Assembly (NCBI GenBank): GCA_037179515.1
Contig: JAXCGZ010003874.1
Location: 61,001-125,000 of the forward strand
Source of the DNA: Halocaridina rubra
Lineage: Eukaryota > Arthropoda > Malacostraca > Decapoda > Atyidae
Direction of reading: 5' to 3'
Length of the DNA stretch: 64,000 nt
In this document: in pieces, positions 12,435-61,979 of the stretch
Layout of the letters: each line of letters begins with the position of its first letter
How positions within the stretch are numbered: the stretch's first letter is position 1
Position numbers and translations under genes: made by a program
Notes under the pieces: model-generated
What the model saw: the letters and a program-made list of their open reading frames with translations, nothing else
Databases searched by the model: none
Told to the model about the DNA's origin: nothing

Positions 12435-12881
12435 TTAAGAGGAGCTACTGGGACAAACTTTGACATGAGCTTGATAATATGTGTTCCGAGTGAAAACCCG
12501 GCCACACCTACATACAAAATTAGGTTTAGAAGGATGGTTCAGTCTTAGATGAGTGGCTATGTTCTCAATACTTCTGTGGTTCTCCTGGCAAAATGGACAG
12601 ATAAAGGGCTGAGGCGTTTCAAATTGAAGTTTGCTTGAATCCAGAGAAGACATGGAATTTGATTCGGTTTCCATTTTGACATATGAGCCACCAAAGTCCT
12701 GAGAAGAGCCATTCGGAGTTGAAGCTGGGTCTTCCTGGGAACTAGTGCTTATGGTTGGATAAGGAGCAGTATCTTGAGGCTGTGTCTCAAATCTTTTAGG
12801 AGAAGTTGTTTTAGTAACTTCACTTCCACCACTTTCCTCCTCACCCTCTTCCTCATCGTCTTCACCTCCACTTTGCACTTC
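12435..12881 (-). CDS. Shared last exon: acidic linker and two zinc fingers
   Basis: The acceptor ...ttttctag precedes 12881. The exon starts in phase 0 (E-V-Q-S-G-G-E-D-D) and ends at TAA, giving 148 residues. Residues 7-16 are strongly acidic, followed by a Ser/Thr/Pro-rich linker. VKME at 68-71 fits the SUMO-attachment consensus. Finger 1 uses C95, C98, H111 and H116 (FICPFCQENHRS...HLRLNH). Finger 2 uses C124, C126, H139 and C143 (VCRCGRVFTRN...HVKVC). The C-x-C start and Cys as last ligand are typical of the second finger in Lola isoforms. Lola-type genes often have several alternative exons at this position, but I found no second finger exon in the window. Confidence 0.9.
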   Translation of the reverse strand, partial: EVQSGGEDDEEEGEEESGGSEVTKTTSPKRFETQPQDTAPYPTISTSSQEDPASTPNGSSQDFGGSYVKMETESNSMSSLDSSKLQFETPQPFICPFCQENHRSIENIATHLRLNHPSKPNFVCRCGRVFTRNTYYQAHVKVCPSSSS

Positions 12882-12972
12882 CTAGAAAAGCCATGAATTA
12901 CAAAATATCTTATAAATACAATGCAGATTCAATAATACTGATAACAGATATATTACTATCAAATGTGAATGG

Positions 12973-13135
12973 TTTTACATTACGAAGTCCCTCTTCTACT
13001 AAGGGTTAGGACAGTGCCTTCATGCAAGGTCTCTGGTTTTGGCAAGTGCAACTGTTACCCTGAGTGCATGCCCTTCTTAACCTCAGACTGTGGTGGGTCC
13101 CAAACTCACGACCTAAACACAGAAGCGTTACCATT
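12973..13135 (-). mobile_element. tRNA-derived SINE, diverged copy
   Basis: Same family as 8797-8988: 'ccctcttctactaagggttaggac', 'ggttttggcaagtgcaa', 'taccctgagtgcatgccctt' and a degraded tRNA-like head near 13095-13135. Diverged at many positions. It lies in the last intron of the BTB gene. Confidence 0.7.
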
Positions 13136-14826
13136 CGGCCTTCAAATAATACAAAATATTTGCATATTTTACTATAGTTTCAAGGTTATTAAATAAAGTT
13201 TCTCTCTTTTTACAGATCTGGAAGTAGAGATACTTAGAAACTGATCATTCTCTTAATTTAACCCTCAGTAATTCAATATACTGGATGGTTAAAAAAATGG
13301 CATTGTACATATGATTACATGATGCCTTGGTATAATGGAAAAGTGAAGAAACATCATCCACTAATCCTGCCATACCTCTAGGTCTTCATTACTTCGACTA
13401 GTTATTCAGCCTGTCCTTTTTTATACTGTGCTTCATTCTCTTATTTCTGCCTAGTTCTTAAACTTCTACTTTTTTCATCTCAATCTTTTCTTGGTGCCCA
13501 GGCTGTTGAGGGCAATATTTTTGCCTGTCCCAGTGTCACAATCAAAATAAAAAAAAGCCATCGTGGAGAGTATTGACACTTTAATGCCAGATTATAATCT
13601 CTAAAGAACAATTCTGCAAGTTGTTACTGATATAGTTTCCAAACCCTTTAATCACTAGTATTATCAAGCAACTCCTTTACTATCCCAAGAACTCATTGTT
13701 TCATAGGCAGCAAGGTACTGCGTAATGCGTCTACTCCGTAATGGGCAGGTCTTGAACTCAGTCTCGCATACATTTAAGCTAACCACCCCACCAACATACC
13801 TGAAGTAACCTTTCCTCTGAAAAGGACCTAATTAAAGACATCTGCTAGCCTTTAGGCTGTGCATCAGCTCCAAAGTTTTGACAACCACTAGTGCAACCTG
13901 ATGTGAGCACAAAAATTATCAGCAAAACTTTTTCTAGTATGTCTTGTTGTCTATTCATTACATCGCATTCTCATACAAATCTATGTAAGCTTTAGAATTA
14001 GGGATGCTCTTCTCAGTCCTGTCCAGAAACTAAAACTACATGAAGCACATAAGAATGCGTACAGCCACAGAAGTTACTGATTAGTTCTCCAACCACGTGT
14101 TAGGCTAGGCTCCTAAGACCTGGTGTGTCAAATGGGAATAACTAACAGAGTGGACACAACTGTAACAAATAGAATAATGTAGAAGTTTCATCATATTCTA
14201 CTATCCTTCATCTATACCATCAGTTACTTTGCAAAAAAAAAATATCTGAGTACGGACTACCTATCTACTTTCCTATCCCTTTTGGGTTTTCCCCATGACA
14301 TGAGGGAAGAGGGAATATGTGTTATAAACAATTTTCATTAAAACGTATGCTAAGATTGTATTCTACCATTTCATGGATTATGTGCATTTTCTTGTCAGTT
14401 GCTTTGTAGGATAGTTATTTTACATCACTTCAGCTAAATTCACATGGCCATGACAAAAGAAGTGCATGTAGCCTTAGGAACCTCGATGCTTGCTAATCTT
14501 GCTTTGAAATAGTCAGGACTTCATTCACGAGAGAAAGCAAGAAGAGATTAGCTTTACTCCTGGGCAACTGGTCTGCAAGCTGCATTTTCTAGTTTATACA
14601 ACCTCTCTTTGACAGAACCATATGACAATTTTAAGGAGAGGAGAGTGGCATCGTTTACATGGTAGCTCCTGTCAGCTTTGCAAGTTCATAGAATACACCA
14701 TTAAATGTGTATAGTCATTAGTGAAGTAACACGTTCACAAATTTAGGTATTGATAATACTATATATATATATATATATATATGCCTGGCCCATAGTTCTC
14801 AGTAGAGAAAAATAAATATATCCTAC
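13136..14826. other. Last intron of the BTB gene
   Basis: Contains a copy of a dispersed retroposon module at about 13430-13560 ('ggtgcccaggctgttgaggg', then 'gcctgtcccagtgtcacaat' and an A-rich end) and a decayed tRNA-like repeat near 13700-13790. The remainder shows no exon-like frame. Confidence 0.5.
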
Positions 14827-59912: not shown

Positions 59913-60414
59913 GATAAAGATAATGGCTCTAATGCAAAAACAGGTAATTAATTTGAAAATACATAAATATATAAATAAAATGAGGTTACAAATATGAGAA
60001 TGAATAAAGAATGAAAAACACGAGAGCGCCGGGTCGTTCTGTAGCAGAAAATTCCCTACGTAGCAACTCGACTGCCTGGCCAATCGTCTCTAATGATAAT
60101 TACTTTAATGACAGATGATGATAATGATGATGGAATTATTTTGATGGAGATAGATGACGAAGACGATGATGGAGTTTTGCTTTGTTACAACTTCAGAATA
60201 TAAAGATTAAAAAATTATATGAAAAATTAAAATTCCAAATGCAAAGAAAAAAAAAAAGTCTTACAGTCCATTGACAGCAGAAATTTTCAAAATATAAACA
60301 AAGTCAATGGCGTTTTACTTGGCTATAACATGAGAACATGATGAAAATAAAGTAAATTACATTAAAATGAATGTTGAGGTCCAATGACAGAAGAAATATA
60401 CACAAAAAATAACA

Positions 60415-60702
60415 TAATAAATAAAACAACGTATATATATATATATATATATATATATATATATATATATATATATATATATATATATATATATATATAT
60501 ATATATATATATATATATATATATAGAAGTTCTTTAATTTCGTGACCTTAACTGGCCACCTTCTCAAAGTACTTTGAGAAGGTGTCCAGTTAAGTTCACG
60601 AAATTAATAAGTACTTATTATATATATATATATATATATATATATATATATATATATATATATATATATATATATATATATATATTCGTTGTTTTATTTA
60701 AT
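60415..60702. repeat. ~290-bp palindrome with (TA)n arms
   Basis: Outer arms 'aataaataaaacaacg' (60,415-) and 'cgttgttttattta' (to about 60,701) are inverted. Inside are (TA)n tracts (60,432-60,525 and 60,619-60,684). The centre is a stem 'taatttcgtgaccttaactgg' / 'ccagttaagttcacgaaatta' with 'caccttctcaaagt' / 'actttgagaaggtg' next to the axis near 60,574. It could be a foldback MITE or a recent inverted duplication. Confidence 0.85.
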
Positions 60703-60992
60703 GAGCTTTTCCTACCATTTTAGACTGTATGTTAACAGTTCAGTGTTATTAATACACAAATATATATACAAATAGGAAATCTTGTGTGGAGCAGTTACTC
60801 TTAACTCCTCCAGACAGCAAAGAAAGTCATAAAATTTATTTAAAAATGAGTATATATCACTGTATTTGTATCTAGATAAACAGACATACACTATCTACAT
60901 GCGCACGTGCTAATTAAACTCATGGAAAGGGAACACAAACAAGCAGTGACAAGTCACGTCAACAACAAAACAGAAAAAAAGAGGTCATCTAC

Positions 60993-61979
60993 CTTCATGA
61001 TAGGCCTGTGTGGCATATTCATCTGATAATGCATTTGAGGTGATAATCCTAAAGCCCCAAACAAGCCCTGGGGATGTGGAGGAGGATGGTGTGGTTGGTG
61101 TTGGAAAGGATGATGTCCAAATCCTTGTAAGGAAGGCGGAGGACGAGGAGGAGTAGATGAACAAGTAATGGGAATGTAAGGTTGAGGACGACCTAAGAAA
61201 GAATGAAGAGGTTCCCAGTATTCCCACTGGGGTGAAGCTATCTCTCCAGACAGAAGCTGCCTACGGATTCGATTGTAGAGCGCCTTCAGGTTATTGAGAC
61301 GTTGGCGGGCCTCGTCTCCAGACACGTCTTTACGCCTACTGAGGGCAGCTGCGAGAGCTGTCCAGATGGCCCGATGGTTCTTCTTTTCGTTACTGAACTT
61401 GTTCTGCCATTCGTCGCTCGTGTACATCGTTATCAGTTCCAGCGTCTCCTCGTACGTCCAGTTGCGTGAGCGGCCTCGTTCGAGGGCCATGCTATCCTGA
61501 AGGTCAGCCCATCCTCCCCAAGGCATAACGGAGGTGTTATCAAGGTTAAAAAAGGCAGGGGGCAAAGGAGGTGGTCTCTGAACACCACTACTCATGCCAG
61601 GGATCATGCCACTCATTCCCCCAGGAATTCCTGTTCCACTTCCTCCTCCCCCTCCTCCTGTTCCCCCGCCAGCTACTGTGGCTGGAACGACTCCTCCTCC
61701 TCCAACTCCTGAAGAAGACGTCGAAGGAATGTTCCGGGGCACGTCGGGCGTTGCAGGAGAAGAGGTGGTGTTAGGAGGGGATGGAATTGTCATGGCCGGC
61801 GCTAAGGGCATGTTGACGTTGTTAGAAACGTTGGGCGGCATACCCGCCCCTGCCACTAACCCAGCAAGGCCTAACAGCTGATGGGGAGGCAGCTGGTGGG
61901 GAGCCATTTGATGGGGTGGCAGATGGTGGAGAGGCAGCTGAGGGGATTCACTCCCCACACTCGCGCGCTCACTGTTCAT
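60993..61979 (-). CDS. Alternative first exon 'SANT': Myb/SANT-like (trihelix) DNA-binding domain
   Basis: 329 codons from ATG at 61979 (context cttactATGA) to donor ATGAAG|gtagat in phase 0. Residues 15-45 carry a repeated PPHQ/LPPHQ motif, residues 90-130 are Gly-rich (CpG-rich DNA). Residues 172-264 form the domain: RNWTYEETLELITMYTSDEW, then NHRAIWTALAAALS and ARQRLNNLKALYNRIRRQLL, with the spaced Trp/Leu pattern of Myb/SANT-like (MADF/trihelix) domains. A Pro/His-rich tail follows. The exon joins the microexon: ..HRPIMK-PSPEITLDD. Codon use is GC-richer than in the other exons. It could also be a separate single-domain gene, but the strand, donor and phase favour the shared gene. Confidence 0.78.

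Follow-up and report, generated by a model that had tools for sequence, protein, structure and literature searches.

Alternative first coding exons on a shared core

Can one gene place DNA-binding domains of different families on a single constant body, and if so, how is its reading frame kept? The question is raised by a locus of the atyid shrimp Halocaridina rubra that lies in a stretch of 64,000 nucleotides (assembly GCA_037179515.1, contig JAXCGZ010003874.1, positions 61,001 to 125,000; hereafter the window, to which all coordinates refer). The minus strand of the window holds four coding exons that run from an ATG to a GT donor, one exon of 40 nt, and the five exons of a BTB-finger core:

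60993..61979, minus strand: first coding exon 1, Myb/SANT-like head; domain at about 61466-61200, donor phase 0
46509..46982, minus strand: first coding exon 2, CENP-B-type DNA-binding domain; CENP-B_N at about 46910-46773 and Tc5 helix-turn-helix (HTH) at about 46715-46536, both minus strand; donor phase 0
45905..45944, minus strand: mini-exon, 40 nt, PSPEITLDDIQKD; 3' of the SANT and CENP-B exons and 5' of the BED exons
42591..43008, minus strand: first coding exon 3, BED-2 zinc finger; finger at about 42996-42865, donor phase 1
23666..24527, minus strand: first coding exon 4, BED-1 zinc finger; finger at about 24356-24234, donor phase 1
16837..16986, minus strand: shared core exon 1, linker GLAGGDERG..., phase 1 acceptor
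16466..16584, minus strand: shared core exon 2, start of the BTB domain
15897..16027, minus strand: shared core exon 3, BTB
14827..15142, minus strand: shared core exon 4, end of the BTB and linker
12435..12881, minus strand: shared core exon 5, acidic linker, C2H2 and C2HC fingers, and stop

These exons most probably belong to one transcription-factor gene, in which alternative first coding exons would each give their own DNA-binding head to a constant BTB-finger core (we put the probability at about 0.9). All four head exons translate openly from the ATG to the donor. Scripted joining, in which the SANT and CENP-B heads took in the mini-exon (45944-45905) and the BED heads went directly onto the core, reproduced the frames of 2190, 1677, 1581, and 2025 nt (SANT, CENP-B, BED-2, and BED-1) given by an original prediction made from the sequence alone, each divisible by three and with a single terminal stop. 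The core common to the four joins consists of a linker, the BTB, an acidic linker, and two C-terminal fingers, and has the 387 residues that had been proposed. An AATAAA lies 3' of core exon 5 at approximately 12260-12255.

The prediction had placed four different heads on one BTB-finger core, and this was found, with each exon in its proposed place and one open frame for each head. All four of its first exons are present, but it had missed a dead fifth one (BED-3, at 32555-32085). The A at position -3 that it reported before the ATG occurs in all four head exons. Its description of the donors as consensus holds for the CENP-B and BED-2 exons (gtaagt) but not for BED-1 (gtatga) and SANT (gtagat), which are not textbook sites. 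On a simple 7-position donor score, SANT reaches 5, CENP-B 6, BED-2 5, and BED-1 5, and a score of at least 5 is reached by 3.5% of the 3461 minus-strand GTs.

The mini-exon as a frame adaptor

The donors of the SANT and CENP-B exons are in phase 0 and those of the BED exons in phase 1, which is also the phase in which the core begins. The mini-exon, 40 nt long, carries a phase-0 frame over into phase 1; of the heads in the window, those of phase 0 are found 5' of it and those of phase 1 are found 3' of it. Because the mini-exon lies upstream, a transcript that starts at a BED exon cannot include it; from the phases and the exon order it therefore follows that promoter choice alone would keep the frame. 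Among isoforms of relatives, the mini-exon peptide occurs in 11 of 11 of the SANT, CENP-B, MATFQ, and ZSWIM classes versus 0 of 22 of the BED type, counted over 33 of 39 same-core rows with hand-assigned classes, the aberrant models P0037 and P0038 being included and the krill, isopod, and four amphipod rows left out. These observations establish the frame-adaptor rule of the mini-exon.

Domain identities and structure models

The SANT head matches Pfam Myb_DNA-bind_4 (3.2e-10, 40.7 bits against a cut-off of 27) and also MADF (8.6e-5). The CENP-B head matches HTH_Tnp_Tc5 (4e-12) and CENP-B_N (2.6e-6), each above its own cut-off, so that a CENP-B_N helix-turn-helix is followed by a Tc5/CENPB HTH, as in the CENP-B DNA-binding domain. 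In a sequence search, residues 24-146 of this head align with the CENP-B DNA-binding domain 1hlv (E 2e-11), and Foldseek gave a CENP-B match (4.6e-5) for the predicted model of the Macrobrachium relative. Both BED fingers match zf-BED (BED-2, 2.1e-8 and 34.5 bits; BED-1, 1.3e-5 and 25.5 bits; curated cut-off 20.6). The BTB of the core is recognized by Pfam at 8.5e-21, and it matches 8rc6, the CG6765 hexamer, in the PDB (4.1e-9).

The C2H2 and C2HC fingers named by the original prediction are upheld by their ligands in relatives but not by Pfam, since a scan of the window proteins left both C-terminal fingers under the Pfam cut-offs. The eight ligand positions (C,C,H,H and C,C,H,C) do not vary across two alignments, one of 13 and one of 18 relatives, which overlap in rows, and this constancy supports function at both ends of the protein. 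In the model of the Macrobrachium relative P0008, the finger region has a predicted local distance difference test (pLDDT) score of 93-95, and the Tramtrack two-finger/DNA complex 2drp ranks second among the PDB matches of the model (probability 0.94, with an E of 0.07 that is not significant). The model of a relative's CENP-B isoform has a mean pLDDT of 54.1, with the first HTH and the finger pair confident, the second HTH middling, and the BTB not confident; that of a BED-1 isoform is poor (mean pLDDT 43.5).

Relatives sharing the core

A search of a protein database with the core, in which the 7991 candidates sharing the most words were scored, returned 93 matches at E up to 0.001. These were sorted by hand into 39 same-core proteins, the Halocaridina model P0045, 21 paralogs, and 32 more distant BTB proteins. 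The decapod BED-, SANT-, and CENPB-BTB-zinc finger proteins that the original prediction had proposed to look for therefore exist, as 39 of the 93 matches share the core and differ N-terminally. Their heads are BED-1 in 15, BED-2 in 6 (P0005 being counted here on its tail alone), BED-3-like in 4 (tentatively so for Armadillidium), SANT in 5, CENP-B with Tc5 in 1, another CENP-B in 3, a MATFQ start without a Pfam match in 2, ZSWIM/FAR1 in 1, and two other Pfam-unmatched BED-like heads in one each. Crabs, crayfish, further shrimps, and an amphipod have this layout too. Decapods and the amphipod have Myb/SANT, BED-1, and BED-2 heads in common; among the matches listed, the two CENP-B types, BED-3, and ZSWIM/FAR1 (and, in paralogs, MADF and THAP) have a patchy distribution.

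Within species, the cores are letter-identical among isoforms in seven named decapods, and the identity sets in at the predicted junction or at the residue that follows. The shared length is 385 residues in Procambarus (5 isoforms), 377 in Cherax (5), 386 in P. monodon (2), 389 in P. chinensis (2), 411 in Eriocheir (2), 383 in Panulirus (2), and 379 in Palaemon (2). Four isoforms of the amphipod Hyalella share 506 identical residues. For Homarus, P0021-P0023 and P0037 have 250 residues common to all four, P0037 being without part of the BTB. The junction residue, read by eye in P0005-P0035, is G in 28, S in 1, and R in 1 (30 of 31), with T in P0031; G, S, or R fits because a split N|GT codon requires such a residue. 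The database names of the isoforms are scattered (bric-a-brac-like, abrupt-like, broad-complex-like, and ZBTB14).

Three contigs labelled 'lgn', a source that we take to be Logan, carry whole fused frames in 3604, 1692, and 2565 nt (BED-1 P0007, BED-3 P0009, and SANT P0031, respectively). A P. vannamei protein has 386 residues in common with an 'lgn' contig, and the core of Macrobrachium differs from that of an 'lgn' contig at 1 of 379 residues. The three fusion contigs are too short to span introns like those of this gene and therefore most likely derive from mRNA, and chance joins are very unlikely because orthologous isoforms are joined at the same place.

A dead BED-3 exon broken by an insertion

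The first exon that had been overlooked is present as a relic with an insertion inside it:

32085..32555, minus strand: dead fifth first exon, BED-3, in two co-linear pieces (32555-32505 and 32171-32085)
32210..32494, minus strand: hAT-like non-autonomous insertion in the dead BED-3 exon, with inverted ends CAGTGGTTCCCAAC / CCGTGGTTCCCAAC

A BED-3 profile (P0006 of Palaemon, P0009, P0024 of Cherax, and P0039) matches the minus-strand peptide 32180-32094 with an E of 5.3e-4. The two pieces match the BED-3 heads of Palaemon and P0009, contain in-frame stops, and have at least one zinc-ligand histidine replaced; the alignment of P0006 starts at 32225, taking in a few bases of the insert. The co-linear pair scores 49.3 bits; the highest score was 37.4 among 40 block-wise shuffles and 34.3 for the reversed window, in a control that used three of the four BED-3-like heads, was made after the match was known, and rests on shuffles that preserve local base composition only. 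The relic lies between the mini-exon and the core on the same strand, a site that suits a phase-1 head.

The insertion is approximately 285 nt long, and its 8-bp flanks are alike at 7 of 8 positions if one end base is taken as lost. With a search pattern drawn from the insertion site itself, ends of this kind gave two matches (up to 2 mismatches) in the window versus 0.24 expected, a number reached by 2 of 100 shuffles. The ends and 8-bp flanks are presumably the signature of a non-autonomous hAT element. Transposases of the hAT superfamily often carry BED fingers, and here a BED head has been broken by a transposon of hAT-like look. Palaemon and Cherax have intact BED-3 heads, as does P0009, whose core points to Penaeus vannamei, and the head was therefore probably lost in the Halocaridina line.

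Age, turnover, and origin of the heads

Over 112 aa, the SANT head and Hyalella isoform X1 have 71% identity; the figures are 72% over 76 aa for BED-1 (X2) and 46% over 114 aa for BED-2 (X4). Since they are common to Hyalella, these three heads are older than the decapod-amphipod split. The CENP-B head of Halocaridina is 74% identical over 142 aa to that of Macrobrachium X3, versus 24-26% for the caridean against the crayfish/lobster CENP-B head; against six paralog heads, the caridean head has 30-31% identity for four and 23-24% for two. This suggests that the caridean and crayfish/lobster CENP-B heads were gained separately.

In a midpoint-rooted BTB tree, the main gene and its paralogs form one group of 26 rows with support of 100/100 against 30 other BTB rows. 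For this tree, 91 of the 93 matches were collapsed to 56 rows (P0037 and P0045, whose BTBs are incomplete, were left out), the labels 'main' and 'paralog' were assigned by hand, and the program warns of long branches at P0046. Heads recognized by Pfam are present in 14 of 16 paralog rows, P0058 and P0063 being without one, and include CENP-B/Tc5, MADF, THAP, Psq, and Myb. The Homarus paralogs P0050 and P0051 carry CENP-B and MADF N-terminal parts on 361 shared residues, the Panulirus paralogs P0046-P0049 have different N-terminal parts with 278 residues in common, and P0055 and P0056 of P. chinensis, both with MADF, have 331 residues in common. In P0052, a paralog of Homarus americanus, CENP-B_N, a Tc5 HTH, and a DDE domain (4.3e-41), together Tigger-like, stand before the BTB, a layout that possibly fits a recent or incomplete transposase capture.

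BED, CENP-B/Tc5, Myb/SANT, ZSWIM/FAR1, and THAP are families that are carried by DNA transposases. The heads of the locus itself are of transposase type, spliced to a host domain, at the family level only. From these domain assignments, it is likely that the Pfam-recognized heads were captured repeatedly from transposases.

Alternative explanations

Exons, frames, and the isoforms of relatives agree, which confirms the observation of the original prediction, and its interpretation appears largely right. Several findings nevertheless weigh against this reading of the locus. The Halocaridina joins are read from the genome sequence and the proteins of relatives. The Halocaridina model P0045 (SK128_003839, 416 aa), read by eye, holds the BED-1 exon and core exons 1 and 2 but then runs into the sequence of the following intron, leaving the remaining core unconfirmed by it; compared with the window, this database gene model is evidently incomplete, with the rest of the gene missing. 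Isoforms named X1-X6 are presumably computed models, and since the match list is limited in length and clustered, a head not seen for a species is not thereby shown absent there. The SANT head reads through its donor into the intron, without a BTB, in P0098 (an 'lgn' contig) and stands without a BTB in P0099 (a Petrolisthes gene model), so a SANT-only product may exist or these two may be faulty models. The Tramtrack motif FxLRWN was not found: it reads YQLRHN in the window and in all main-core rows (38 of 39) but that of Armadillidium, where it reads YKLRHN, and because of this alteration hexamers cannot be assumed. In the wasp Phymastichus coffea, P0082 has a BED finger before a BTB outside the malacostracan group; the BED-BTB layout can therefore arise elsewhere too, perhaps by a separate origin. 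With regard to the source of the heads, a search with the CENP-B head among 1261 candidates found itself alone and no transposase, missing known paralog heads as well, and one with the SANT head among 412 candidates, of low sensitivity, gave 7 matches, all apparently this gene, and no transposase.

The evidence for promoters bears on how the heads are chosen, and it consists of one conserved leader beside a palindrome:

62126..62206, minus strand: stretch 5' of the SANT ATG; its translation of 27 aa is 78% identical to the N-terminus of Procambarus isoform X1

The palindrome GCGCATGCGC at 62201-62210, which we take to resemble NRF-1/Ewg sites, overlaps the start of this stretch, which is probably a promoter or 5' leader. 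Acceptor-like sites, none of them better than chance, stand before all four ATGs, and the sequence does not separate own promoters from a shared non-coding leader.

Rather than having been captured from transposases, the heads might descend, by duplication and divergence, from DNA-binding exons that the host had long possessed. BED-1, BED-2, and BED-3 are weakly alike (26-37% mutual identity), and the two head searches returned members of this gene instead of transposases. However, these searches were weak, as the paralog heads missed by the CENP-B search were already known, the heads are of different families that are all of transposase-carried kinds, and the Homarus paralog P0052 has a whole Tigger-like protein ahead of the BTB. 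A host origin is the less likely of the two, and repeated capture is preferred.

It is also improbable that the locus is a single long transcription unit in which all isoforms begin with the same non-coding leader and splicing, by taking in one of the four coding exons as an internal exon to the exclusion of the others, selects the head. Acceptor-like sites in the 300 nt before the ATGs score 14 (SANT), 14 (CENP-B), 11 (BED-2), and 13 (BED-1), compared with 11-16 for the six acceptors of the gene. However, random 300-nt stretches reach these scores in 37%, 37%, 88%, and 56% of 2000 draws, and because they do so this often the sites are no evidence for internal exons. The presence of the mini-exon follows position, for which the promoter model needs no splicing control, and the conservation with Procambarus beside GCGCATGCGC favors a promoter or leader at the SANT exon.

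It is scarcely credible that the heads belong to separate genes that lie nested upstream of a BTB gene and have 3' exons of their own: P0098 and P0099 would fit this, but database fusions dismissed as annotation errors would have to recur in 11 species sets and at the same place in decapods, three 'lgn' contigs of 1.7-3.6 kb, too short for introns like these, hold fused frames, and the identical cores among isoforms within species disfavor this model.

Other elements in the window

Fifteen head profiles compared with 2691 six-frame peptides of the window, the caridean CENP-B profile including the window's own exon, recovered the known exons, cross-matches, an open reading frame (ORF) of ZSWIM type, the BED-3 relic, and four weak matches (E 0.12-0.2). 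BED-3, MATFQ, ZSWIM, and crayfish-type CENP-B heads were not found as live exons of the window by tblastn at 1e-3, which gave cross-matches only (BED-3 heads to the BED-2 exon, and the ZSWIM head to the ZSWIM/MULE-like ORF).

35960-34785 and 34020-33640, minus strand: ZSWIM1/3- or MULE-like ORF; ZSWIM3_N 1e-17, RNaseH-like 2.1e-27, MULE 2.4e-10

This ORF is nested in an intron in the same orientation, and its second piece has a SWIM-like Cys motif, seen by eye and without a Pfam match. It was rejected as a fifth live head, being 23% identical to the Cherax ZSWIM head and having an RNaseH-like domain, and was kept as an intronic element. On the plus strand, a 1093-aa stop-to-stop ORF at 53371-56652 lies within the intron that separates the SANT exon from the CENP-B exon and resembles a long interspersed nuclear element (LINE), with endonuclease and reverse transcriptase motifs recognized by eye.

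Proposed mechanism

In this gene, the live first exons would each contribute a complete head (Myb/SANT, CENP-B/Tc5, BED-2, or BED-1) that is spliced onto the common core. Each head most likely has a promoter of its own, and promoter choice would set the family of the head. The layout alone would keep the frame, with phase-0 heads passing through the mini-exon and phase-1 heads joining the core directly. Since the BTB and the finger pair are the same in every isoform, co-expressed isoforms may be expected to assemble into mixed dimers or into higher oligomers with different heads; dimers are the cautious assumption, and mixed higher oligomers are hypothetical. The head and the finger pair may bind DNA jointly. 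In the malacostracan BTB family, heads would have been gained and lost repeatedly, probably from transposases.

A broader and more tentative idea, which we hold at somewhat less than even odds, is that the locus is a long-lived docking site at which transposase heads are captured, kept, swapped, and killed. The phase-1 core acceptor and the mini-exon could turn an upstream insertion with a promoter and a DNA-binding exon into an isoform at once. SANT, BED-1, and BED-2 would then have been kept since the decapod-amphipod ancestor, CENP-B heads swapped between Caridea and crayfish/lobsters, and BED-3 killed in Halocaridina by the hAT-like insertion, and the paralogs would repeat the pattern with MADF, THAP, and Tigger heads. 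If this is true, mixed oligomers formed through one BTB could bridge different transposon-type sites, and promoter choice would amount to a combinatorial code.

Comparison with known systems

In Drosophila, lola, mod(mdg4), broad, and fruitless have a constant N-terminal BTB and variable C-terminal parts. The present locus is like them in that one BTB zinc-finger locus gives many isoforms with different DNA-binding parts on one BTB. Unlike them, it varies N-terminal heads of different families and keeps the C-terminal BTB and fingers constant, so the reversal of the lola/mod(mdg4)/broad layout that the original prediction had proposed is borne out. No constant N-terminal BTB was found, the BTB standing behind a variable N-terminus in the window and in the 39 main-core rows. 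Alternative C-terminal DNA-binding exons were likewise not found, as the C-termini of isoforms are identical within species, 3' exons beyond the matches not being searched for. Host-transposase fusion genes, reportedly described by Cosby et al. in Science in 2021, splice a transposase DNA-binding domain to a host regulatory domain. The present gene is like them in joining a transposase-type DNA-binding domain to a host domain by splicing, but it has several heads as alternative first exons, some of which have been retained since the decapod-amphipod ancestor.

PMC11426971 describes the variable C-terminal fingers of lola, and describes Tramtrack-group BTBs as hexamers with wide interactions, in which the BTB is usually N-terminal with two fly exceptions. 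The present BTB is likewise an arthropod domain related to TTK-type BTBs, and the modelled finger pair of a relative resembles that of Tramtrack; in contrast, it lies mid-protein, and the tree separates it from the bab, lola, and ttk rows. ZBTB11-type vertebrate proteins have an N-terminal integrase-derived module, a BTB, and C-terminal fingers in the same order, but as far as the part of PMC12062965 available describes, ZBTB11 has one head and no alternative ones. BTB-associated CENPB and THAP proteins of Octopus similarly bring CENP-B or THAP domains together with a BTB, whereas no shared core with alternative first exons is described in the accessible part of PMC10027918. Imagin, a Ginger1-derived malacostracan gene found in Halocaridina as well (PMC12863088), is likewise a domesticated transposon gene in the same animals, but it is integrase-like, and 'BTB' is absent from the main text of that paper.

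Both BTB isoform loci and transposase capture are already known. A literature search, with subscription journals mostly outside its coverage, found no paper that reports alternative first exons encoding DNA-binding domains for a BTB core, and no description was found of multiple alternative-first-exon heads on a constant BTB-finger body common to decapods and an amphipod. The locus reverses the textbook rule for arthropod BTB loci, in that a single gene would switch the entire class of its DNA-binding domain via the first exon. The recurrence in decapods and an amphipod, the dead exon, and the transposase-like paralog of the lobster form a natural series for studying the passage from transposase domain to transcription factor, and the same series informs how captures preserve the reading frame.

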